Source: a virus. From it: DNA of 30,873 bases. Below are positions 2,130 to 20,932 of the stretch, one piece after another (within the stretch, counting starts at the first letter, position 1; every line of letters starts with the position of its first letter). Made by a program: the position numbers and the translations under genes. Under the pieces are notes generated by a model. The model was not told the DNA's origin. It did not search any database and saw nothing but the letters and a program-made list of their open reading frames with translations. The stretch lies in the IMG/VR virus record IMGVR_UViG_3300025727_000003, positions 1-30,873 of that record; one strand, 5' to 3'.

Positions 2130-3065
2130 ATGGCAAATATATTATTAAGAAGTCCTTTTTATATTAATCAAACACAAAGTGGTGCACAATCAGCAAAACT
2201 AGAATTAGAGATTGATGGAACATTAAGGTATACAATTATAAAAGACACACCAACAACATCAGTAACATTTGAAATAGCAGAACTAGCAAGAGACTATCTA
2301 GATATTACTTACGCAGGTTCTTATCAAAATCAAAAAGTTACAATAGCGGGAGAGATTACATGGTATCAATCAACTAACGCAACAGGAGGAACTACAGGAA
2401 CACCAGTAACATTTACTCATAATGGTTTTGATGGCTATTGGGATTACTATAACACCTCTTCAGATAAAGACTTCTGTGGTACAGGATCTTGTTTAATGCA
2501 AGACAATACAACAATATATGTACCTGAAGGAGAAGGAGGGTTTATTCCAGTGTTATCATCAGGTTCAATAATTTATAATTCATTTACAGGTTCTACAACT
2601 TCTTTAGCAGTGGGATCACCACCTGTAACAATAACTATTAAAAGAACAGACTGTTCAAGATACACACCAATGCAAGTAACATTTGTAAACAAATACGGAG
2701 CTTTACAAGATGTTTATTTCGACAAGAAAAGTGTAGAGTCAGTAAGAACTACATCACAACAATATAGAAACAGCAACATTAGTTCAAGTGGTACATATTC
2801 AAAAACCTCACATCAATACAGAACTTTAAAGAAACAAGCAAGAGAAACAATGACTTTAAACACAGGATATATAGATGAAGGAATGAATGAATCAATGAAA
2901 CAATTAATGTTGTCAGAACAAGTTTGGATGCACATGGGATCAGAAATTCACCCAATAGATATTGTAACTAATTCATTAACTCTGAAAACAAAAGCAAACG
3001 ATAAATTAATAAATTACACATTAGAAGTAATTCACGCACATGACCATATTGATAACGTTAGGTAA
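2130..3065 (+). CDS. Tail/baseplate structural protein, 311 aa
   Basis: Largely beta-rich: many Thr, Ser and Val, with a central region containing FCGTGSC, a possible disulfide or metal pair. The C-terminal third has the segment SVRTTSQQYRNSN...YRTLKKQARETMTLNTGYIDEG followed by MKQLMLSEQVWMHMG, which I recall from Bacteroidetes phage tail loci. It probably forms part of the tail tip, next to the very large protein encoded downstream. The stop and the next ATG share one base (TAATG). The exact role is not known. Confidence 0.6.
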   Translation: MANILLRSPFYINQTQSGAQSAKLELEIDGTLRYTIIKDTPTTSVTFEIAELARDYLDITYAGSYQNQKVTIAGEITWYQSTNATGGTTGTPVTFTHNGFDGYWDYYNTSSDKDFCGTGSCLMQDNTTIYVPEGEGGFIPVLSSGSIIYNSFTGSTTSLAVGSPPVTITIKRTDCSRYTPMQVTFVNKYGALQDVYFDKKSVESVRTTSQQYRNSNISSSGTYSKTSHQYRTLKKQARETMTLNTGYIDEGMNESMKQLMLSEQVWMHMGSEIHPIDIVTNSLTLKTKANDKLINYTLEVIHAHDHIDNVR

Positions 3066-6000
3066 TGAAAGTAACACTACAATTATACATAGAAGGAAAT
3101 AGAGTTGATTTATTTAGTGACGAGTCTGTAAATATTATACAGTCTATTCAGAACGTTAAAGATATATCTAAAATTTTTGTAGAGTTTACTAGAACCTTTA
3201 ATGTGCCTGCTTCTAAAAATAATAATAAAATATTTGAACATTATTATAACTATTCTATTGATGGAGGATTTGACGCAAGAATAAAAAAGACATCTACAAT
3301 AGAGCTTAATTCAAGACCATTTAAAATAGGAAAGATAAAGCTAGATGGTGTTGATTTAGAAGATGGTTCACCTAACACTTATAGAATAACGTTCTTTGGA
3401 AACACAATAGATTTAAATGATTTACTAGGAGATGATGATTTAAGTTCTTTAGATTTAACTGCTTTTGACTCTACTTATACACCAGCTGAAGTAAAAACAG
3501 CACTACAATCAGGTCTAACAAAAACATATACCAAATCAGACGCATCAACTATTATCTATCCTCAAGGTATAATAGCACCATTAATATCACACACTACAAG
3601 ACTCTACTATGAAGCTTCTACCACAGCAGTGTACCCAGATCCGTTAGGAGGAAACTTATATCCATCTAGCACAAATCATCAAGGTGTTTATTACGAAGAG
3701 TTAAAATATGCTATTAGAGCAGATGCAATAATAAGAGCTATAGAAGACAAATATGGATTAACCTTTAGTAATGATTTCTTTAACACAACTAATAACGCAT
3801 ATTATGGTTTGTATTTATGGCTACAAAGAAAGAAAGGTAAGGCATTTGAAGAAGCAGCAGTAACAAAACAAGTAACAGGATTTACTATAGATTACAATCA
3901 AGAAATTCCTGAAGTATCAAGTTATGTAGATAGATTAGTTGTGCAGAATGTAACATCAGGTTCTATACAATACTCTTTAACAATAGAATCAACAACAAGT
4001 ATAGATGGTACAGTTATAATAAAAAAAGATGGAGGTTCATTTGACCAAAGAGAGATAAGCGGAACTTCAATAACATTAAATGGTTATTTAACAAACGGAA
4101 CATACACTGTATTTATAAATTCTGCTGAAACATCATTTACTTTATCTACAAACACACAATGGGATTTAGATCCTACTTATTATCCAGATAGTGCAGCACA
4201 ATATCCTTTAACAAGTACATTTGCTTTTAATAACACCAGAACGTTTATTATAAGTGAGCAAATGCCAGAGATGAAAGTAATAGACTTTTTAACTGGACTG
4301 TTTCAGTTGTTTAATTTAACAGCTTACACCGAAAACGGAACTATAGTAATTAAAACATTAAATGAATATTATTCTGATTCTGATACAGTCTGGGATATTA
4401 CAAACGATGTAGATACTACAAAAAGCACAGTTGATGTAGCTTTGCCTTATAAAGAAGTAGAATTTAGATATGAAGGATTAGATACAAAATTAGCAAAGCA
4501 ACACGAACAAATAAACAACACCTCTTGGGGAACAGAGAGTTATTCAGGTGATGATTACTATGATGCAAATCCAGAAATATATTCAGTAATAGCTCCTTTT
4601 GAGCACATGAAGTATGAAAGGTTATATAATGGAAGTACACCTATAGAAGCACAAGTTGGATGGTTTGTAGATGATAACAACGAAGCTTACTTTGGTAAGC
4701 CTTTATTGTTTTATACTTATAATCAAACATCAGCAACATCAATAAGATTCCTAGAAACAGAAGATGCAGGCACATATGACGATATAACAAGTTATTTTAT
4801 TCCTTCTAACAGTGTAGACATAGACAGCACCGTAAGTGATGTATCAAATAATTACAGAAACGAAATAAACGAATACACTAACACAAATGCATTTGATAAG
4901 ACATTGTTTGCACAATACTATCAAAACTACATTTCTCAAGTGTTTCAAGAAAACAGAAGATTAACTACTGTTTATGCTTATTTACCTTTAAAAATGTTAC
5001 AAGAGTTTATTCTTGCTGACACAATAGCAATAAGCGACAAGAACTATACTATAAATGAAATAGAAACAGATTTTAGTACTGGCAGAAGTAAATTAGAATT
5101 AATTAATGGTTTGACGGTGTCTGTAGGAGGATCAACACCAATTACAACAACAACAACTTCAGACGAAGATGCATGTACTGAATGTAGTGCTGATTCTACA
5201 TTTTGTACTGTAGATGGATTAACACCCACAGCTGACAAAACATGTGACGTAGGAAGAAGTGTAGTTGTAAGTGGGTTAACAAGCCAACAACAAACCGAAG
5301 ATATTACGTTAACAGCTACAGCTAATAATTTTATAGGTACAGCTACGTATTTATGGTCTGGTGGAAATGCAGCAGGATTAACAACATCTTCTATAACAAT
5401 AACAAATGCAACAACAGGAAACGTAACATATACTTGTGTGGCTACAGATAGTGATGATAGTGCAGAGTTTACAGATACGCATACGGTTCTATGGACACCT
5501 AAAACATATGTAATAACATTAAACGTAATAGACAGTATTTCATCACCTACATCTGCAGCGTATAATGTGACAGGAGATCAGACAGGAACAACTCAAACAC
5601 TACAAGAAGGTGAAACATATTCATTTAATACAAGTGTAAGTGTTAATAGTGGCTATCAATTTACATCAGGACCTTCTATATCAAACGCAACAGGTACTGT
5701 AGGAACATCTAACTTAACAGTAAATACAACTTTAACTGGTACAGTTCAAGCAACATCACAATTCTTAACTATTAGTGGACCTACTGCTAAAACGGTAAAT
5801 GTAAATTTAACTCTACTTGCTACACCTTCAGGATTTACTCCCACGAGTTATTCTTGGTCTGGTGGTTCTGCAAGTGGTTCTACTCAAAGTATAACATTTA
5901 CAGAAACCGTAGCAGACACATACACTTATACGTGTACAGCAACAGATGGTACAATCACTGCAACAGATACACACGTGGTAGTCTGGACAACACAAACGTT

Positions 6001-7798
6001 AATTGATATAACGTTAGCTATAGACACAAGTGCAATAACAGCTCCAGTTAATTCATTTACAATCACAGGAGACCAAGACGGATTAGTAAAATCACAAAAT
6101 TCTGGTACAGTGTTTGTCTTTAGTTCTGGTATAGAATTAAATTCAGGATTTGAGTATGTAGGTAGTGCTCCAACAGTTAACAATGCAGGGGGAACATTTA
6201 CAACGAGCCAAACAGTAACAACTGTATTTGGTTCTGCAACCATTCAGCTAATAGTATATAATTATTATGTAGTAACAGGATGTTCAGGTCAAACAGTAGC
6301 AGGACAAACAATATATGTAAGATCAAGAGATACTTTTACAGTAGGAAACAGTACAACAGGAACTTATATAAAAATAAACAACTTATGTTACTATACATCT
6401 TCAACAGCATTTGCTTCTGACTGGGCAACTAATAATGGTGTTACAGTAGGTGATGGTGAAGGTACAGGGTGTGACACTTGTACAGGAGGAGGAACAACAA
6501 CAGATCCTTGTTTAGCAACTAAATCAGTATTTTATTTAAGATACTCTACATCTAATGATGTTTGTGAAAACGAACAATCTAAAAACTTTTACTATGTAAA
6601 TGGATCAGGTCTTTCTCAAACAAATTCTAATTGGTGTAGTATAACAGATCTTTATACTTACGCAGACTGTACAGTAGCAGCACCAACTGGATATTATTCA
6701 CTAGACAACGACAACACAGATAGAAGATATTGGAATGGTTCTAGTTTTAGTGTATGTATAAATTGTATTGATGCAAATGGATTGTATTATTTAGGACAAA
6801 GCTGGGATCCAGTTCAAGATTATTGTGATTCTTCACAAGGGGTTTTTGGATATTATTATTTTGACAATAATAAAACACTAACTACAGCTACAAGTAATGA
6901 TGACATGTATACAAGTGCTGCTAATATTGGTACTCCTAATAAAGCGCCAGAAGGATTTTATACAGACCTTACAAGTTATAGATATTACGAACCAAATACA
7001 GCACAAGTATGGGAAAACTATGGGGGATGTCCAGTTAGACCAACAACAACAACTACTACTACTGTACCAACACTAACGGTGTTTAGACAATATGGAGACT
7101 GTCCTACAGGCGGACTTGATGCGACTAAAGTGTTTGGTAATAATTCTACAAGTGGTTTCCCATTTGTAATAGAAGATGAAAACGGAGATTGTTGGTCAGA
7201 TCCACAGTTTACATCAACATCATCTACAGATTGGGTTGGTGATAGTGCGTTTACACATTATGATGATTGTGTTTCTTGTACGGGTACTACAACTACTACC
7301 ACGACTACCACAACGACACAAGCACCAGACAATGTATTTGTAGTAGAAAGACAAAGTGATGGATTCGCAACATATGTACAATTAGATTCTGGTTATCAAG
7401 TAGGAAATACAGATTTAACTATATCAACAGATGGTGCAACGTGTTATGATATAGCAGGAACAGCTTTAGTAACTGATCCTACAGTTTATGGTGAAATTAC
7501 AGGTTCTTGTATAACTACAACCACAACAACTACGACAACAACAATTACTTGTGGATCTCAAACATTATACAAATCGGCAGTAAGTGCAACAGACGTATGT
7601 TGTAATTCAGCAACAGCTAGAACAGTTTATATGGATAGCAACAGCATTACAACAGCAACTGCTATTTATCAAGATGATACTTGTAGTGCAACTTTGGCAA
7701 CAGATCAATACTTCTCTGAAGATTTTGGAGAGTATTATTTCTGGAACTCATCAACAACCACATTAACAGGACCAACAACTTGTCCAGCATGTCCATAA
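3065..7798 (+). CDS. Giant multidomain tail-tip/receptor-binding protein with Ig-like repeats and poly-Thr linkers, 1577 aa
   Basis: The largest gene of the phage. Residues 1 to about 690 form a tail-associated region (MKVTLQLYIEGNRVDLF...) of a type seen in Bacteroidetes phages. A Thr run (about 693-698) leads to two Ig/PKD-like repeats (about 724-812 and 898-975: YLWSGG...TYTCVATD and YSWSGG...TYTCTATD), each followed by a second beta domain (ITLNVID, ITLAIDT). From about 1060 the protein is Cys-rich, with small repeated modules of the type 'C...YYxxxG' separated by Thr runs near residues 1327, 1408 and 1484. The end is PTTCPACP. The runs use mixed ACA/ACT/ACC/ACG codons, so the peptide rather than a DNA repeat seems to be kept. 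It likely forms the tail tip and contacts the host surface; this is inferred. A glycosyltransferase-like gene starts 2 bases after the stop. Confidence 0.7.
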   Translation: MKVTLQLYIEGNRVDLFSDESVNIIQSIQNVKDISKIFVEFTRTFNVPASKNNNKIFEHYYNYSIDGGFDARIKKTSTIELNSRPFKIGKIKLDGVDLEDGSPNTYRITFFGNTIDLNDLLGDDDLSSLDLTAFDSTYTPAEVKTALQSGLTKTYTKSDASTIIYPQGIIAPLISHTTRLYYEASTTAVYPDPLGGNLYPSSTNHQGVYYEELKYAIRADAIIRAIEDKYGLTFSNDFFNTTNNAYYGLYLWLQRKKGKAFEEAAVTKQVTGFTIDYNQEIPEVSSYVDRLVVQNVTSGSIQYSLTIESTTSIDGTVIIKKDGGSFDQREISGTSITLNGYLTNGTYTVFINSAETSFTLSTNTQWDLDPTYYPDSAAQYPLTSTFAFNNTRTFIISEQMPEMKVIDFLTGLFQLFNLTAYTENGTIVIKTLNEYYSDSDTVWDITNDVDTTKSTVDVALPYKEVEFRYEGLDTKLAKQHEQINNTSWGTESYSGDDYYDANPEIYSVIAPFEHMKYERLYNGSTPIEAQVGWFVDDNNEAYFGKPLLFYTYNQTSATSIRFLETEDAGTYDDITSYFIPSNSVDIDSTVSDVSNNYRNEINEYTNTNAFDKTLFAQYYQNYISQVFQENRRLTTVYAYLPLKMLQEFILADTIAISDKNYTINEIETDFSTGRSKLELINGLTVSVGGSTPITTTTTSDEDACTECSADSTFCTVDGLTPTADKTCDVGRSVVVSGLTSQQQTEDITLTATANNFIGTATYLWSGGNAAGLTTSSITITNATTGNVTYTCVATDSDDSAEFTDTHTVLWTPKTYVITLNVIDSISSPTSAAYNVTGDQTGTTQTLQEGETYSFNTSVSVNSGYQFTSGPSISNATGTVGTSNLTVNTTLTGTVQATSQFLTISGPTAKTVNVNLTLLATPSGFTPTSYSWSGGSASGSTQSITFTETVADTYTYTCTATDGTITATDTHVVVWTTQTLIDITLAIDTSAITAPVNSFTITGDQDGLVKSQNSGTVFVFSSGIELNSGFEYVGSAPTVNNAGGTFTTSQTVTTVFGSATIQLIVYNYYVVTGCSGQTVAGQTIYVRSRDTFTVGNSTTGTYIKINNLCYYTSSTAFASDWATNNGVTVGDGEGTGCDTCTGGGTTTDPCLATKSVFYLRYSTSNDVCENEQSKNFYYVNGSGLSQTNSNWCSITDLYTYADCTVAAPTGYYSLDNDNTDRRYWNGSSFSVCINCIDANGLYYLGQSWDPVQDYCDSSQGVFGYYYFDNNKTLTTATSNDDMYTSAANIGTPNKAPEGFYTDLTSYRYYEPNTAQVWENYGGCPVRPTTTTTTTVPTLTVFRQYGDCPTGGLDATKVFGNNSTSGFPFVIEDENGDCWSDPQFTSTSSTDWVGDSAFTHYDDCVSCTGTTTTTTTTTTTQAPDNVFVVERQSDGFATYVQLDSGYQVGNTDLTISTDGATCYDIAGTALVTDPTVYGEITGSCITTTTTTTTTTITCGSQTLYKSAVSATDVCCNSATARTVYMDSNSITTATAIYQDDTCSATLATDQYFSEDFGEYYFWNSSTTTLTGPTTCPACP

Positions 7799-7799
7799 T

Positions 7800-8684
7800 A
7801 TGAAATATATAGCAGCACAACCAGAATTAAAATACTATGAATGGCAAGTAGACACTATGATATATTCGTATTTAAAACAAGGAGTAGATCCTAATGATAT
7901 CATAATACTATGGGGAAACACAGGTGAATATAATTGTGACGGTTTAAGAAAGAAATATCCAACAGTAAACTTTCATAAATACCCTTATAAAAGAGAAGCA
8001 TATCCACCTGCTATAAAACCGTATTTAATGTCTAAATATTTTGGAAGCTGTAAGTGTACACAAAGTGAACAATATTATTATGCAGACGCAGACACTATAT
8101 TAACTAAACCTTTACCTGACTTTCCAAACGATACTGTTTTTATGTCAGACACAAAAAGCTATATAGGTTATGATTATATAATTTCAAAAGGAGAAGAGAT
8201 TTTAGACATTATGTGTGAAGCAACAAAAATAGATAAAAACATTATTAAAGAAAGAAGACACGAATCAGGAGGATGTCAATTTATATTTTCAGGAACAGAC
8301 AGTAAATTCTGGAAAGAAGTATACGTGAACTCTAACGCACTTTATAGAGAGATGCGTAGATACAATCAAGAACACAAAGAAAAGTACAAAGGAACATATC
8401 CTATACAAGCATGGACTGCTGAAATGTGGGCAACTTTATGGCAGTTTTTTAAAAAAGGATATAAAACAGAAATTAGTAAGGATTTAAGTTTTGCATGGGC
8501 AACAGATCCATTAAATATGCTAGAGGGTAAAAGAATACTACATAATGCAGGAGTAACAGACAAGCATAAAGATTTTTTTAAGAAATCTAATTGGCAAAAT
8601 GAAAGTCCACCATCAGATCTCAATATAACAAAAACCCATTGTAGTTATTATTATTACAAGCAAGTATTAGAAGCAACATGTTAG
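7800..8684 (+). CDS. GT-A type glycosyltransferase-like protein, 294 aa
   Basis: The segment YYYADADTILTKPL (about residues 91-104) has a DxD motif (DAD) after a hydrophobic strand, the metal and sugar-nucleotide binding signature of GT-A folds. Later ESGGCQFIFSG and ILHNAGV look like acceptor-side and C-terminal His motifs of such enzymes. There is no signal peptide, so it would act in the cytoplasm. It lies between the giant Thr-run protein and the tape measure, inside the tail operon, so the likely substrate is a virion protein; modified DNA or host glycan are alternatives. The TAG overlaps the next small gene by 7 bases. Confidence 0.65.
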   Translation: MKYIAAQPELKYYEWQVDTMIYSYLKQGVDPNDIIILWGNTGEYNCDGLRKKYPTVNFHKYPYKREAYPPAIKPYLMSKYFGSCKCTQSEQYYYADADTILTKPLPDFPNDTVFMSDTKSYIGYDYIISKGEEILDIMCEATKIDKNIIKERRHESGGCQFIFSGTDSKFWKEVYVNSNALYREMRRYNQEHKEKYKGTYPIQAWTAEMWATLWQFFKKGYKTEISKDLSFAWATDPLNMLEGKRILHNAGVTDKHKDFFKKSNWQNESPPSDLNITKTHCSYYYYKQVLEATC

Positions 8685-16852: not shown

Positions 16853-16950
16853 AGAAAAAGTATAAACCTAAAGCCTATAACTTGGAAAGATTAAAAAAAT
16901 TCATTATAGACCTGAAAAAGAATAACAAAAAATTAAAAAACCTATTGTAA
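16840..16950 (+). CDS. Small basic peptide, 36 aa
   Basis: A 36-residue, lysine-rich frame (MGIVKKKYKPKAYN... ending KLKNLL) starting inside the end of the connector gene (13-base overlap). Its last codons lie within the promoter-like motif at 16925-16954. Coupled phage genes often have such overlaps, and the peptide forms a basic helix, but its shortness and the overlap with a regulatory motif make it uncertain. Function unknown. Confidence 0.45.
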   Translation: MGIVKKKYKPKAYNLERLKKFIIDLKKNNKKLKNLL

Positions 16951-16954
16951 TAAT
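16925..16954 (+). promoter_or_regulatory. Late promoter-like motif, copy g (fibre module)
   Basis: ACAAA at 16925-16929, 15 bases, then TTGTAATAAT at 16945-16954, directly before the ATG at 16955. The second box is identical to copy a at 392-401. It probably starts the fibre and lysis transcript. Confidence 0.7.
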
Positions 16955-17122
16955 ATGAGTTTCGGTTCGATATATGACGTATCTTGGTGGGGATTAACAA
17001 ATGAATCAAATGGTTGGGGTAACATATACCCTTTTGATGCAGATGGATCTAATTTTAGAGCAGATACAACATTAGTATTGGCAGACACAACAAATTATAC
17101 AGGAGATCAAACAATATTTTAA
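16955..17122 (+). CDS. Small virion-locus protein, 55 aa
   Basis: A short protein beginning MSFGSIYDVSWWG and rich in Trp, Asn and Gly (WWGLTNESNGWGNIYPF), without signal peptide or membrane helix. It starts exactly at a late promoter-like motif and is followed 3 bases later by the fibre gene. The composition suits a small structural peptide associated with fibres. I do not recognise a family. Confidence 0.6.
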   Translation: MSFGSIYDVSWWGLTNESNGWGNIYPFDADGSNFRADTTLVLADTTNYTGDQTIF

Positions 17123-17125
17123 AAA

Positions 17126-17719
17126 ATGGCAAAACAAACAATTAATATAGGAACAACAGCAAATGACGGGACAGGTGATCCAATAAGATCCGCATTTGAC
17201 AAATCAAATGACAACACCAACGAAATATATTCACTTTTTGGTGATGGCACAACACTTGCAGTAAGTGGAGATGCAACTGTATCAGCAGGTGCTTTAACAA
17301 TAGCAGCAGATGCAGTAGTAACTGCTAAAATATTAGATTCAAATGTAACTACAGCTAAACTAGCAGATGATTCTGTAAGTTTTGAAAAAGTAGACGCAGA
17401 GTTTACAACAAGTAGTGCGTTAAGTGCAGGTGCAACAGTTGCAGTAGATTTTGACGCAGCACAAGTATTTACGCTAACACCTAACGCTAATACAACATTT
17501 AACATAACAAACCCAAAAATAGGAATCACTAAAACAATAATAGTAACAGGAGCAGGAAGTAGTTATACAGCTGATACTTGGCAAGTAGGTGGAGGAGCAG
17601 GTACGTTTAATAAAATAGCAGGTACTTATGACGATACAAGTTCAACTAAAAACTTTTATCAAATAACGTGTGTAAGTGCTACAGAATTTTGGTATAGTAT
17701 TAGTCAAATAGCAAGTTAA
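17126..17719 (+). CDS. Fibre/neck-appendage-like structural protein, 197 aa
   Basis: The start, MAKQTINIGTTANDGTGDPIRSAFDKSNDNTNEIYSLFG, is a well-known N-terminal module of marine phage structural and fibre proteins, thought to anchor the protein on the virion. The middle is Ala-, Thr- and Val-rich with a repeated 'TAKILDSNVTTAKLADDSV' type segment common in trimeric fibres, and the C-terminus is a beta domain ending WYSISQIAS. It heads the fibre module and probably forms a fibre shaft and attachment base. Confidence 0.65.
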   Translation: MAKQTINIGTTANDGTGDPIRSAFDKSNDNTNEIYSLFGDGTTLAVSGDATVSAGALTIAADAVVTAKILDSNVTTAKLADDSVSFEKVDAEFTTSSALSAGATVAVDFDAAQVFTLTPNANTTFNITNPKIGITKTIIVTGAGSSYTADTWQVGGGAGTFNKIAGTYDDTSSTKNFYQITCVSATEFWYSISQIAS

Positions 17720-17740: not shown

Positions 17741-19531
17741 ATGTTTGGACAAGGTATAAATTTTGGAACTTTAGGCGCAGCTCAAGTAATAGCCGACTTT
17801 CTTGTAATCGCAGGAGGAGGTTCTGGTCATAGGTCAGATGTCAATAATGGTGCAGGTGCAGGTGGTGCAGGTGGTCTGCGAACTTCATACGGAATTACAT
17901 CTGGAGGAGGAGCAAGTGCTGAATCAAAAATTACATTAGTAGATGCAACAACTTATACATTTACAGTAGGTGCTGGAGGTGCAGATAATACAACTGGTGG
18001 AGGACCTGCTATAAGTGGTTCAGATTCATCTATTGCAGCAGCAGGAATTACTACTATTACTTCTCTCGGTGGAGGAGGAGGTGGTGGTGTAGGTTTACCT
18101 GCAGAAGCTTCAACATCAGGAGGTTCTGGTGGTGGAGGTGGTGGATATAACAGTGGCGCTGGTGCAGCAGGTACTGCTAATCAAGGATTTGCAGGAGGTA
18201 CAGGTTCATCAAGTACAAGCGGTACTTTTTCTCAAAGAAATGGTGCTGGTGGTGGTGGAGCAGGAGCTGTTGGAACAAATGGTAGTAATTCTTCTGCAGG
18301 TGCTGGTGGTTCAGGTTTATCTGTTAGCATAACTGGTTCATCAGTAGGTTATGCTGGTGGAGGTTCAGGAGGAAATAAAGCAGGTTCAGGAATTGCAAGT
18401 AGTGATGGAGGAGGAACAGGAGCAGGAACAACTGGAATAGGAACAGCTGGAACAGTCAACACAGGTGGTGGTGGCGGTGGAGGTGGTGTCGCATCTTATG
18501 CTGGAAAAGGAGGTGGTAGTGGTATAATTATATTTAGATTACCAACTTCTGCTTATACAACAGGATATACAACAGGTTCACCAACAGTTACAACAGATGG
18601 AAGTTCAACAATATTACAATACACAGGTTCAGGTACTTATGTACACGGAGCAACCGCACCTGAATTAATGTATTATTTAGTTTTAGCAGGTGGTGCTTCA
18701 GGTGCTTCCAATGGAGGAGGTGGAGGTGCAGGTGGATTAAGAACATCTTATGGAACAGTATCAGGTGGTGGAGGTTCATTAGAAAGTGGAATTACATTAT
18801 CTAACGGAACTTACACTATTACTATTGGTGGTGGTGGTGCTTCTGTTGATAACACTACATCATATCAAGCAAGAGGAAATGCAGGTTCTGATTCGCATAT
18901 ACAAGCTTCAGGAATGACAACAATAAACACAAGTGGAGGTGGAGCTCCAGGTTCTAATAATTTAACTGCATCATCAGGTGGTGGTTGTGGTGGTGGGCAA
19001 GGTGCATCAATTTCAGCAAGGTCTGCACAAGCAGGAACAAGTGGAGAGGGTTATCCAGGAGGAGCAACCCCAAGTGTAGGACACCCTTATCGAGGAGGTG
19101 GGGGAGGTGGAACTGGTCAAGCAGGTTTCGCTAATAATGAATCCACATCAAGCAACATAAGTAGAGGTGGCGATGGATTAGCTTCAAATATAACTGCTTC
19201 TACAGTAAGATATGGTGCAGGAGGAGGTGGTACTGGAGGAACAGGTTCAGGTTATTCAGGACCTGGAGGTACAGGTGGTACAGGCGGTGGAGGTACTGGG
19301 GGTGCTTACAACGGAAGTGGTACAGATGGTACGGCAAGTACAGGAAGCGGAGGTGGAGCAACAGGAGATGCACAAAGTTATACGTCAGGAGCAGGTGGTT
19401 CAGGAATAGTAATATTAAGATTGCTAACATCTTTATATTCAGGAACAACAAGTGGTGCTCAATCGATTTCAACAGATGGACTTGATACAATAATAAAATT
19501 TACAGGTAGTGGTAGTTATACCCATAGTTAA
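17741..19531 (+). CDS. Glycine-rich adhesin/tail fibre with two tandem homologous halves, 596 aa
   Basis: Two related halves of about 290 residues each. The first starts near residue 20 (DFLVIAGGGSG...GGLRTSYGITSGGG) and ends SGIIIFRLPTSAY...STILQYTGSGTYVHG; the second starts near residue 310 (YYLVLAGGASG...GGLRTSYGTVSGGG) and ends SGIVILRLLTSLY...DTIIKFTGSGSYTHS. Between these ends lie many runs of Gly (GGGGGGG), as in polyglycine-II adhesins such as phage S16 gp38, where Gly-rich loops form a packed receptor-binding tip. It most likely binds the host surface. The extreme GGN codon use also creates false open frames on both strands. Confidence 0.7.
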   Translation: MFGQGINFGTLGAAQVIADFLVIAGGGSGHRSDVNNGAGAGGAGGLRTSYGITSGGGASAESKITLVDATTYTFTVGAGGADNTTGGGPAISGSDSSIAAAGITTITSLGGGGGGGVGLPAEASTSGGSGGGGGGYNSGAGAAGTANQGFAGGTGSSSTSGTFSQRNGAGGGGAGAVGTNGSNSSAGAGGSGLSVSITGSSVGYAGGGSGGNKAGSGIASSDGGGTGAGTTGIGTAGTVNTGGGGGGGGVASYAGKGGGSGIIIFRLPTSAYTTGYTTGSPTVTTDGSSTILQYTGSGTYVHGATAPELMYYLVLAGGASGASNGGGGGAGGLRTSYGTVSGGGGSLESGITLSNGTYTITIGGGGASVDNTTSYQARGNAGSDSHIQASGMTTINTSGGGAPGSNNLTASSGGGCGGGQGASISARSAQAGTSGEGYPGGATPSVGHPYRGGGGGGTGQAGFANNESTSSNISRGGDGLASNITASTVRYGAGGGGTGGTGSGYSGPGGTGGTGGGGTGGAYNGSGTDGTASTGSGGGATGDAQSYTSGAGGSGIVILRLLTSLYSGTTSGAQSISTDGLDTIIKFTGSGSYTHS

Positions 19532-19549: not shown

Positions 19550-19930
19550 ATGGCACATTTTGCACAAATAGATGAAAACAATATAGTAATTCAAGTAATT
19601 GTAATAAACAATGAAATATTATTAGATACAAATGACAATGAATCTGAAGCTAAAGGTATAGATTTTTGTGAATCATTATATGGTCATAGAGATTGGGTAC
19701 AAACATCTTATAATGGAAATATGAGATATAATTATGCAGGAATAGGTTATACTTGGGATAGTGAAAACGATGCTTTTTATGCACCACAACCATTTGCAAG
19801 TTGGTCATTAAATGAAGATTATAAATGGGAAGCACCCGTACCTTATCCTGAAGATGCATCACCTGAAAAAATATACGAGTGGGATGAAGATAATCTTACT
19901 TGGAAAGTAGTTGAACTTACAATAGAATAA
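19550..19930 (+). CDS. Marine-phage fibre-locus protein, 126 aa
   Basis: Begins MAHFAQIDENNIVIQVIVINNEILLD and contains GIDFCESLYGHRDWVQTSYN, NYAGIGYTWDSENDAFYAPQPFASWSLNED and YEWDEDNLTWKVVE. As I recall, this layout matches a small protein family widespread in cyanophages, pelagiphages and other marine phages, usually near tail fibre genes. The function is not established; a fibre-associated or assembly role is suggested by location. It is the last gene of the fibre module. Confidence 0.65.
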   Translation: MAHFAQIDENNIVIQVIVINNEILLDTNDNESEAKGIDFCESLYGHRDWVQTSYNGNMRYNYAGIGYTWDSENDAFYAPQPFASWSLNEDYKWEAPVPYPEDASPEKIYEWDEDNLTWKVVELTIE

Positions 19931-20208: not shown

Positions 20209-20568
20209 ATGAAATCATATTTTAGATATAGTGAATTTGACTCGCCTGACTTTCCTGATAGTGGTTATAATATGGATCCAACCTTTTTACGCATGCTCAA
20301 CTATGCACGTCAAATTGCAGGGATACCATTCAGGATTAATTCAGGATTCAGAACTACAGAACATAATGCAAAAGTGGGAGGATCGGAGAATTCATCACAT
20401 TTACATGGATTCGCTGCCGATATACATGCAACATCCAGTACAGCAAGATACGAAATACTATCAGCACTTATCAAAGCTGGATTCTATAGGATAGGAATAG
20501 CAAACACATTTATACATGTAGATGCAGATCCTAATAAAATACAAAAAGTAATATGGACATATGATTAA
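20209..20568 (+). CDS. Endolysin, peptidase M15 family (D-Ala-D-Ala type), 119 aa
   Basis: Residues FRINSGFRTTEHNAKVGGSENSSHLHGFAADIHA carry the M15 signature: Arg48 in SGFRT, His64 and Asp71 in SSHLHGFAAD, and a second zinc ligand His103 in FIHVDAD. The enzyme would cut peptidoglycan stem peptides to release progeny. It has no signal peptide, so it needs a holin, and a 3TM holin gene overlaps its end by 8 bases. The ATG at 20202 is closed after seven codons, so 20209 is used. The protein is a single catalytic domain, normal for Gram-negative hosts. Confidence 0.85.
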   Translation: MKSYFRYSEFDSPDFPDSGYNMDPTFLRMLNYARQIAGIPFRINSGFRTTEHNAKVGGSENSSHLHGFAADIHATSSTARYEILSALIKAGFYRIGIANTFIHVDADPNKIQKVIWTYD

Positions 20569-20932
20569 GATATTAAAAGCTTTATTAGGATTAAGAGGTA
20601 ATGGTGGTTCTGGTTTAGGACTAGAAATAAGAGAACTTATAAAGGGAAAAGAAATAGACCCACAGAAGCTAATTGAACTGCAAGGAGAGATCAACAAAGT
20701 AGAAGCACAGCACAGAACAATCTTTGTAGCTGGATGGAGACCTTTTATTGGATGGGTTTGTGGTGTAGCTTTAGCATACAACTTTGTATTAAGAGATTTA
20801 CTAATATGGTTTATTGGACCTGAACAAGTACCTCCAGCTCTACAGATGGAACATTTAATGACAGTATTAATAGGTATGTTAGGACTAGGAGGAATGAGAA
20901 CTTTTGAGAAACTAAAAGACAAGTCTAACTAA
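20561..20932 (+). CDS. Holin, 3-TM (GTA-holin-like) family, 123 aa
   Basis: After a Gly-rich start and a charged segment, HRTIFVAGWRPFIGWVCGVALAYNFVLRDLL is the hallmark of the 3TM holin family first named from gene-transfer agents. Further hydrophobic stretches are VPPALQMEHLMTVLIGMLGLGGMRTFEK. It would form holes in the inner membrane for endolysin release. It overlaps the endolysin gene by 8 bases, so the two are translationally coupled. Confidence 0.85.
   Translation: MIKILKALLGLRGNGGSGLGLEIRELIKGKEIDPQKLIELQGEINKVEAQHRTIFVAGWRPFIGWVCGVALAYNFVLRDLLIWFIGPEQVPPALQMEHLMTVLIGMLGLGGMRTFEKLKDKSN

Follow-up and report, generated by a model that had tools for sequence, protein, structure and literature searches.

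A candidate receptor-binding protein with two tandem polyglycine domains and a linked PHROG 7759 gene in a tailed phage

Introduction

The report on the tail fiber of cyanophage Pam3 presents its glycine-rich domain as a conserved stem that ends in a variable distal tip, to which receptor recognition is assigned (PMC9608196). The Pam3 protein gp24 carries one such domain behind an N-terminal helical shaft, and a small Tfa-like protein, the chaperone gp25, is dedicated to this fiber (7ypx, 7yfw). In T2-type and S16 phages, gp38 is a separate tip protein wherein a polyglycine II lattice presents hypervariable receptor loops, and the account of the lattice in PP01 gp38 places a beta-helix scaffold below it (PMC12892980). 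For a haloarchaeal hafunavirus, the part of the study concerned with host range maps the mutations to a glycine-rich adhesin gene and the adjacent small gene, in a hypervariable region (PMC8651126). A glycine-rich protein is also found at the tail tip of Bxb1, a mycobacterial siphophage (9d93). The fold and the idea of exchanged adhesin modules are already known.

The window analyzed here is the whole of a 30,873-base virus record. It derives from a tailed phage, with terminase, portal, tape measure, holin, and endolysin genes. Its terminase is nearest to those of Flavobacterium psychrophilum phages (50% identity), from which we guess a flavobacterial host. Elsewhere in the window, positions 3065 to 7798 encode a 1577-amino acid protein with Ig-like-looking repeats and long threonine runs in its C-terminal part, which matches PHROG 38559 (unknown function) over amino acids 6 to 690. 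Directly downstream, positions 7800 to 8684 encode a 294-amino acid PHROG 4417 protein that has no Pfam match. Our subject is a glycine-rich protein encoded between a tail fiber connector gene and a small gene of PHROG 7759.

Results

Two homologous polyglycine domains

The ORF at positions 17,741 to 19,531 (plus strand, 596 amino acids) exists as originally described, and both of its halves carry the start block AGGLRTSYG..SGGG and an end block in which SGI.I.RL..S.Y is followed by TGSG.Y.H. Domain 1 (D1; amino acids 19–309, positions 17,795 to 18,667) includes the tail of its own end block and has nine variable segments between positions 17,825 and 18,505. Domain 2 (D2; amino acids 310–596, positions 18,668 to 19,528) has nine between 18,704 and 19,387. 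BLASTP aligns the halves with 42% identity over 267 columns (E 1.5e-17). Their global alignment score is 555. Full shuffles reach no more than 246, and shuffles restricted to residues other than G, S, A, and T no more than 423 (300 of each). Because the score also exceeds that of these composition-matched shuffles, the likeness of the halves goes beyond glycine content, and the two are homologous polyglycine domains over their whole length. The original description of different Gly-rich middles needs one correction. Variable segments alternate there with conserved glycine stretches, but the middles are homologous too, by a narrow margin (367 versus at most 347 in 300 of the stricter shuffles).

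The designation of this protein as a polyglycine adhesin is well supported. Both halves exceed the curated cutoff (24.3 bits) of the Pfam family PF21722 (Gly_rich_2), with scores of 30.1 bits for the first and 49.9 bits for the second; a search of the domains against PDB sequences gave no match. The D2 model, built from an alignment of 92 domains, is confident (pLDDT 92.7, pTM 0.92), and the full-length model, built from 18 rows, is weaker (pLDDT 79.2, pTM 0.70). When VIA-align was run on 92 chains chosen by Foldseek, the D2 model matched solved glycine-rich phage tail-tip domains, best of all that of Bxb1 (Z 12.8, rmsd 3.0, 172 residues, 32% identity) and then the Pam3 fiber (Z 11.3, rmsd 3.1, 160 residues, 24% identity), with the glycine-rich domains of ALK/LTK as the next family (Z 5.4). 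The fold match rests on this structural alignment, since the best E-value from Foldseek was only 1.7e-3, to Bxb1. As judged from the models, the adhesin contains the stacked glycine-rich stretches of the solved lattice of the Pam3 gp24, Bxb1, and gp38 type.

Predicted structures extend the comparison to cultured phages. The D2 model has 84 matches with E ≤ 0.001 among predicted viral proteins, led by a glycine-rich protein of Pelagibacter phage HTVC025P (TM 0.81), and a glycine-rich protein of Synechococcus phage Bellamy shares the predicted fold of the window domains (BFVD). Relative to the window, these are phages of unrelated families and hosts. A tblastn search of isolated phages with the whole adhesin returned no match, which we do not take as absence; because predicted structures of isolate proteins do match, the low-complexity filter of BLAST is the probable cause.

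The adhesin resembles the part of Pam3 gp24 described above in its fold and in joining conserved glycine stretches to variable segments. It differs in having two glycine-rich domains with only ~18 residues before the first, and the full-length model, at low confidence there, predicts no N-terminal helix of the kind by which gp24 docks in the same chain. It is likewise similar to gp38, as a modeled lattice with variable loops in a putative separate tip protein, but the modeled D2 has a beta scaffold different from the beta-helix reported for PP01 gp38. S16 gp38 was not among the VIA-align matches listed from the 92 chains compared, which excludes nothing.

Three loci from other samples (L007, L008, and L011) that are 100% identical to the window start or stop within the adhesin gene, at window positions 18,139, 19,132, and 19,256. 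These ends may stem from differences between strains or from repeats encountered during assembly.

The adhesin gene lies in an exchangeable cassette

Upstream of the adhesin gene, positions 17,126 to 17,719 (plus strand) encode a 197-amino acid connector with a T4 gp9/10-like N-terminus (PF07880, score 31.9, cutoff 25; PHROG 677, baseplate wedge tail fiber connector) by which the tip module is probably attached to the tail. Downstream, a conserved right flank (20,209 to 20,932, plus strand) holds an M15 endolysin gene (20,209 to 20,568) and a holin gene (20,561 to 20,932), both 100% identical in loci L019, L249, L250, and L252. Sibling loci were picked by the neighboring endolysin or holin rather than by the adhesin. 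L249 is 94% identical to the window up to position 17,426 and 97% from 19,921, and L250 is 86% identical up to 17,306 and 98% from 19,935. Finer alignment of both loci places the 5′ edge of the exchanged segment at ~17,200 to 17,220, inside the connector gene near codon 28, and its 3′ edge at 19,930, which is the stop codon of the small gene.

What occupies this slot differs among siblings. L249 encodes a 907-amino acid fiber with DUF7483 and LamG domains, L252 encodes a related fiber, and in L250 an S74 chaperone domain is accompanied by two more ORFs. The fact that siblings fill the same slot with other fiber types is our best evidence that the glycine-rich protein is a receptor-binding part. 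Judged from sequence comparison, the adhesin and the small gene would constitute a receptor-binding cassette that siblings replace whole, and such replacement probably changes which bacteria are bound.

A PHROG 7759 gene is linked to the adhesin

The small gene at positions 19,550 to 19,930 (plus strand) encodes a 126-amino acid protein of PHROG 7759, a family matched by all 68 partner relatives scanned. We counted its linkage to glycine-rich (Gly) ORFs with only identical sequences merged, so that close kin count separately. Selection by the adhesin gave 80 loci with 96 distinct Gly ORFs, of which 85 are followed by the partner, seven by another gene, and four by another Gly ORF. Of the 79 distinct partner genes in these loci, 77 come after a Gly ORF, a class amounting to 117 of 794 plus-strand ORFs. 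Where new loci were picked by the partner (L091 to L166), a Gly ORF lies upstream of 49 of 63 partner genes, against a background of 87 of 732. Loci chosen by holin or endolysin (n = 107, some on contigs fetched before, and with cases at locus ends left out) gave a partner for 16 of 17 Gly ORFs and a Gly ORF for 14 of 14 partners; 93 of these loci exceed 5 kb, and 16 of them have both genes and 70 have neither. Three adhesin–partner pairs stand in a row in L032, L040, L050, L055, L063, L075, L078, and L080.

The same arrangement occurs in isolates, wherein a glycine-rich ORF is directly upstream of the partner in seven of nine regions chosen by the partner. In Bellamy, for example, gp33 is followed by the PHROG 7759 relative gp34, both annotated as hypothetical. 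Locus L167, on a contig of an Aliivibrio MAG (the one locus from a scan of genome contigs), combines a PHROG 7759-like gene with a match to the glycine-rich domain. Longer versions of the family, with open frames of 227 to 329 amino acids, are present in L025 (1392 to 2228), L027 (1656 to 2336), L039 (1786 to 2637), and L058 (1077 to 2063), that of L025 having inserts and extra Trp-rich repeats.

The remaining 14 of the 63 genes in partner-chosen loci have another upstream neighbor, often an ORF that by eye resembles 2OG-Fe(II) oxygenases. The ORF just upstream is not glycine-rich in L111, L116, L129, L130, L137, L150, and L154; those read in L111, L116, L129, L137, and L150 have the oxygenase-like appearance, and L116, L129, L130, and L137 have a glycine-rich ORF slightly further upstream.

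Distances among partners and among adhesins are correlated (Mantel rho 0.27; maximum of 0.115 in 300 free permutations), and within 19 multi-pair loci (45 pairs) the value is 0.62, whereas shuffles average 0.52 and attain 0.62 in 2 of 500 cases. This covariation is modest, and a close mirror-tree relationship was rejected. Partner identity to the window also does not closely track the C-terminal loop set, being 84% for L022 (domain 52%) and 79% for L003 (domain 80%). If the partner binds the adhesin, it therefore more likely binds the scaffold.

Searches of the partner against Pfam, NCBIfam, and the PDB found no convincing family (best PDB E 8.6), and so a chaperone role rests on gene position and linkage. 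By analogy with Pam3 gp25, the partner is probably an assembly chaperone of the adhesin. The two proteins differ in that gp25 is reported as Tfa-like, and no Tfa family appeared among the Pfam matches of the 68 partner relatives at E up to 1. The main rival to the chaperone reading makes the product of the small gene part of the virion, a tip protein (cap or co-receptor) that is carried along with the adhesin. It draws on the same linkage data and on the position of PHROG 7759 near fiber genes in the isolate regions, but the chaperone is preferred because of the Pam3 precedent, in which the chaperone is reported as not detected in virions (PMC9608196). Nothing found here speaks directly against a tip component, which is possible, if on balance unlikely. 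The small hafunavirus protein that follows its glycine-rich adhesin in the described gene order (PMC8651126) was considered as a homologue and rejected, as the HF2 protein does not resemble PHROG 7759 in sequence (E 0.29 with a negative score). The HF2 adhesin gave no match to our domain model either. On these sequence searches, the hafunavirus parallel is one of arrangement and not of descent.

The two domains have separate histories

The tandem arrangement had been predicted to arise by duplication in place, followed by divergence of the loops. The halves are indeed homologous from end to end, and proteins with one domain and with two are both found in the same setting. Each half is nevertheless nearer to domains of other phages than to its neighbor. 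D1 and D2 are 51% identical, whereas D1 is 77% identical to its nearest relative, D1 of L009 (D2 of L009, just 52%), and D2 is 80% and 79% identical to the second domains of L003 and L006, the connectors of which are 75% and 70% identical to that of the window.

A quick tree of 92 domains (121 before near copies were removed) gives a consistent picture. First domains fall mostly in one supported clade, and window D1 is in a 13-row clade that includes 10 first domains (support 98), whereas second domains are spread over the tree. In the same tree, L003 D1 groups with single-domain proteins (support 100) and L019 D2 with two single-domain proteins (support 99). The differing neighbors and identities indicate that the domains move independently. 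Moreover, the loop sets of the two domains are unrelated in all 14 distinct two-domain proteins, which include close kin (L003, L004, and L005; L010 and L012), with identities of 0.01 to 0.11. Duplication in place followed by loop divergence is accordingly improbable, though a duplication in the distant past may have taken place.

Exchange is visible among near relatives. L019 shares the connector (97%) and the endolysin and holin (100%) with the window, but its D1 and D2 are only 69% and 53% identical. At the DNA level, identity is 96 to 100% at positions 16,921 to 17,500, 37 to 89% inside the adhesin gene, and 95 to 100% beyond ~19,980. A general flank-identity screen for swapped alleles returned 34 pairs scored as different, mostly truncated contigs or small differences, and overlooked L019, as the BLAST alignments extended into the adhesin gene. 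The parts of the adhesin look like exchanged modules.

Matching loops are mostly shared as sets

An alignment of 103 domains shows conserved blocks alternating with variable ones, and nine variable segments lie between the conserved glycine motifs of each domain. Loop exposure was judged from conservation, DSSP, and model confidence, and the nine segments mostly coincide with lower confidence in the D2 model. Over 4186 domain pairs, non-glycine identity averages 0.06 in loops and 0.43 in the scaffold, the low loop average being partly built in because loops were defined as variable columns. Just 13 of the 4186 pairs share loops at ≥0.35, and in the strongest of these nearly all nine loops match. 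For example, D1 of the window and D1 of L009 share all nine (loops 0.78, scaffold 0.59); in a pairwise alignment with Gly–Gly pairs excluded, 48 of 62 loop positions agree versus 78 of 128 scaffold positions (Fisher p 0.03). Where loops match between phages, it is mostly whole sets that match. Some weaker pairs, such as L065 and L072, share part of their loops but not all, which indicates that smaller blocks move too.

Comparison of loops among relatives had been proposed to reveal either recombination or hypervariation. Exchange is seen among relatives (L019, L249, and L250), and in three of four pairs the loops do not outpace the scaffold, a result that speaks against continuing hypervariation by point mutation. 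Diversification of the loops in place, whether through targeted hypermutation (e.g., a diversity-generating retroelement) or through point mutations under strong diversifying selection, would fit the placement of variable segments between conserved glycine stretches and the D1 pair of the window and L019 (loop dN/dS 0.67 versus scaffold 0.35), but it is very improbable given loop dN/dS values of 0.19, 0.21, and 0.08 in three matched pairs (scaffold 0.18, 0.21, and 0.20) and the lack of a reverse transcriptase among those window proteins that were scanned, a subset of the ORFs.

Discussion

We propose, with a probability of roughly 0.72 for the reading as a whole, that positions 17,741 to 19,531 encode the receptor-binding tip protein of a tailed phage, with two domains acquired as blocks and carried with a partner in an exchangeable cassette. 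Each of the two tandem polyglycine-lattice domains would consist of a conserved beta/glycine scaffold presenting about nine variable segments. Because the loop sets of the domains are unrelated, two distinct binding surfaces are probably available at the tip. The domains and their loop sets would have been acquired from a pool common to aquatic phages, rather than by copying a neighbor and mutating its loops. The adhesin gene would form the core of a cassette bounded by roughly codon 28 of the connector and the stop codon of the 126-amino acid gene, a slot in which sibling phages place LamG-type or S74-type fibers. The PHROG 7759 gene would be passed on together with the adhesin gene, and its product is most likely the partner of the adhesin, an assembly chaperone if the analogy with Pam3 gp25 holds.

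A broader generalization is tentative, at somewhat less than even odds. It holds that PHROG 7759 is a widespread, dedicated partner of polyglycine adhesins (chaperone or cap) in aquatic phages of unrelated hosts, with one partner per adhesin even in loci that have three pairs in succession, and that two-domain adhesins are bispecific and built from loop sets held in common by phages, which hand them on as intact specificity blocks. The literature searched, which lay largely outside the subscription journals and was queried by terms other than PHROG numbers, yielded no paper on the pairing of such adhesins with PHROG 7759. Within that scope, the tandem pair with unrelated loop sets, the inheritance of loop sets as blocks, and the tight PHROG 7759 linkage appear to be new.

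If this interpretation is correct, an unnamed protein family, encoded next to the receptor-binding genes of cyanophages, pelagiphages, and flavobacteria-like phages, would gain a likely role. It would also suggest that the specificity of polyglycine adhesins is inherited as whole loop sets, and phages with a common set, such as those of the window and L009, are therefore predicted to share a receptor. Such a relationship would aid phage host prediction from metagenomes, and the reading can be tested in cultured phages that carry this gene pair.
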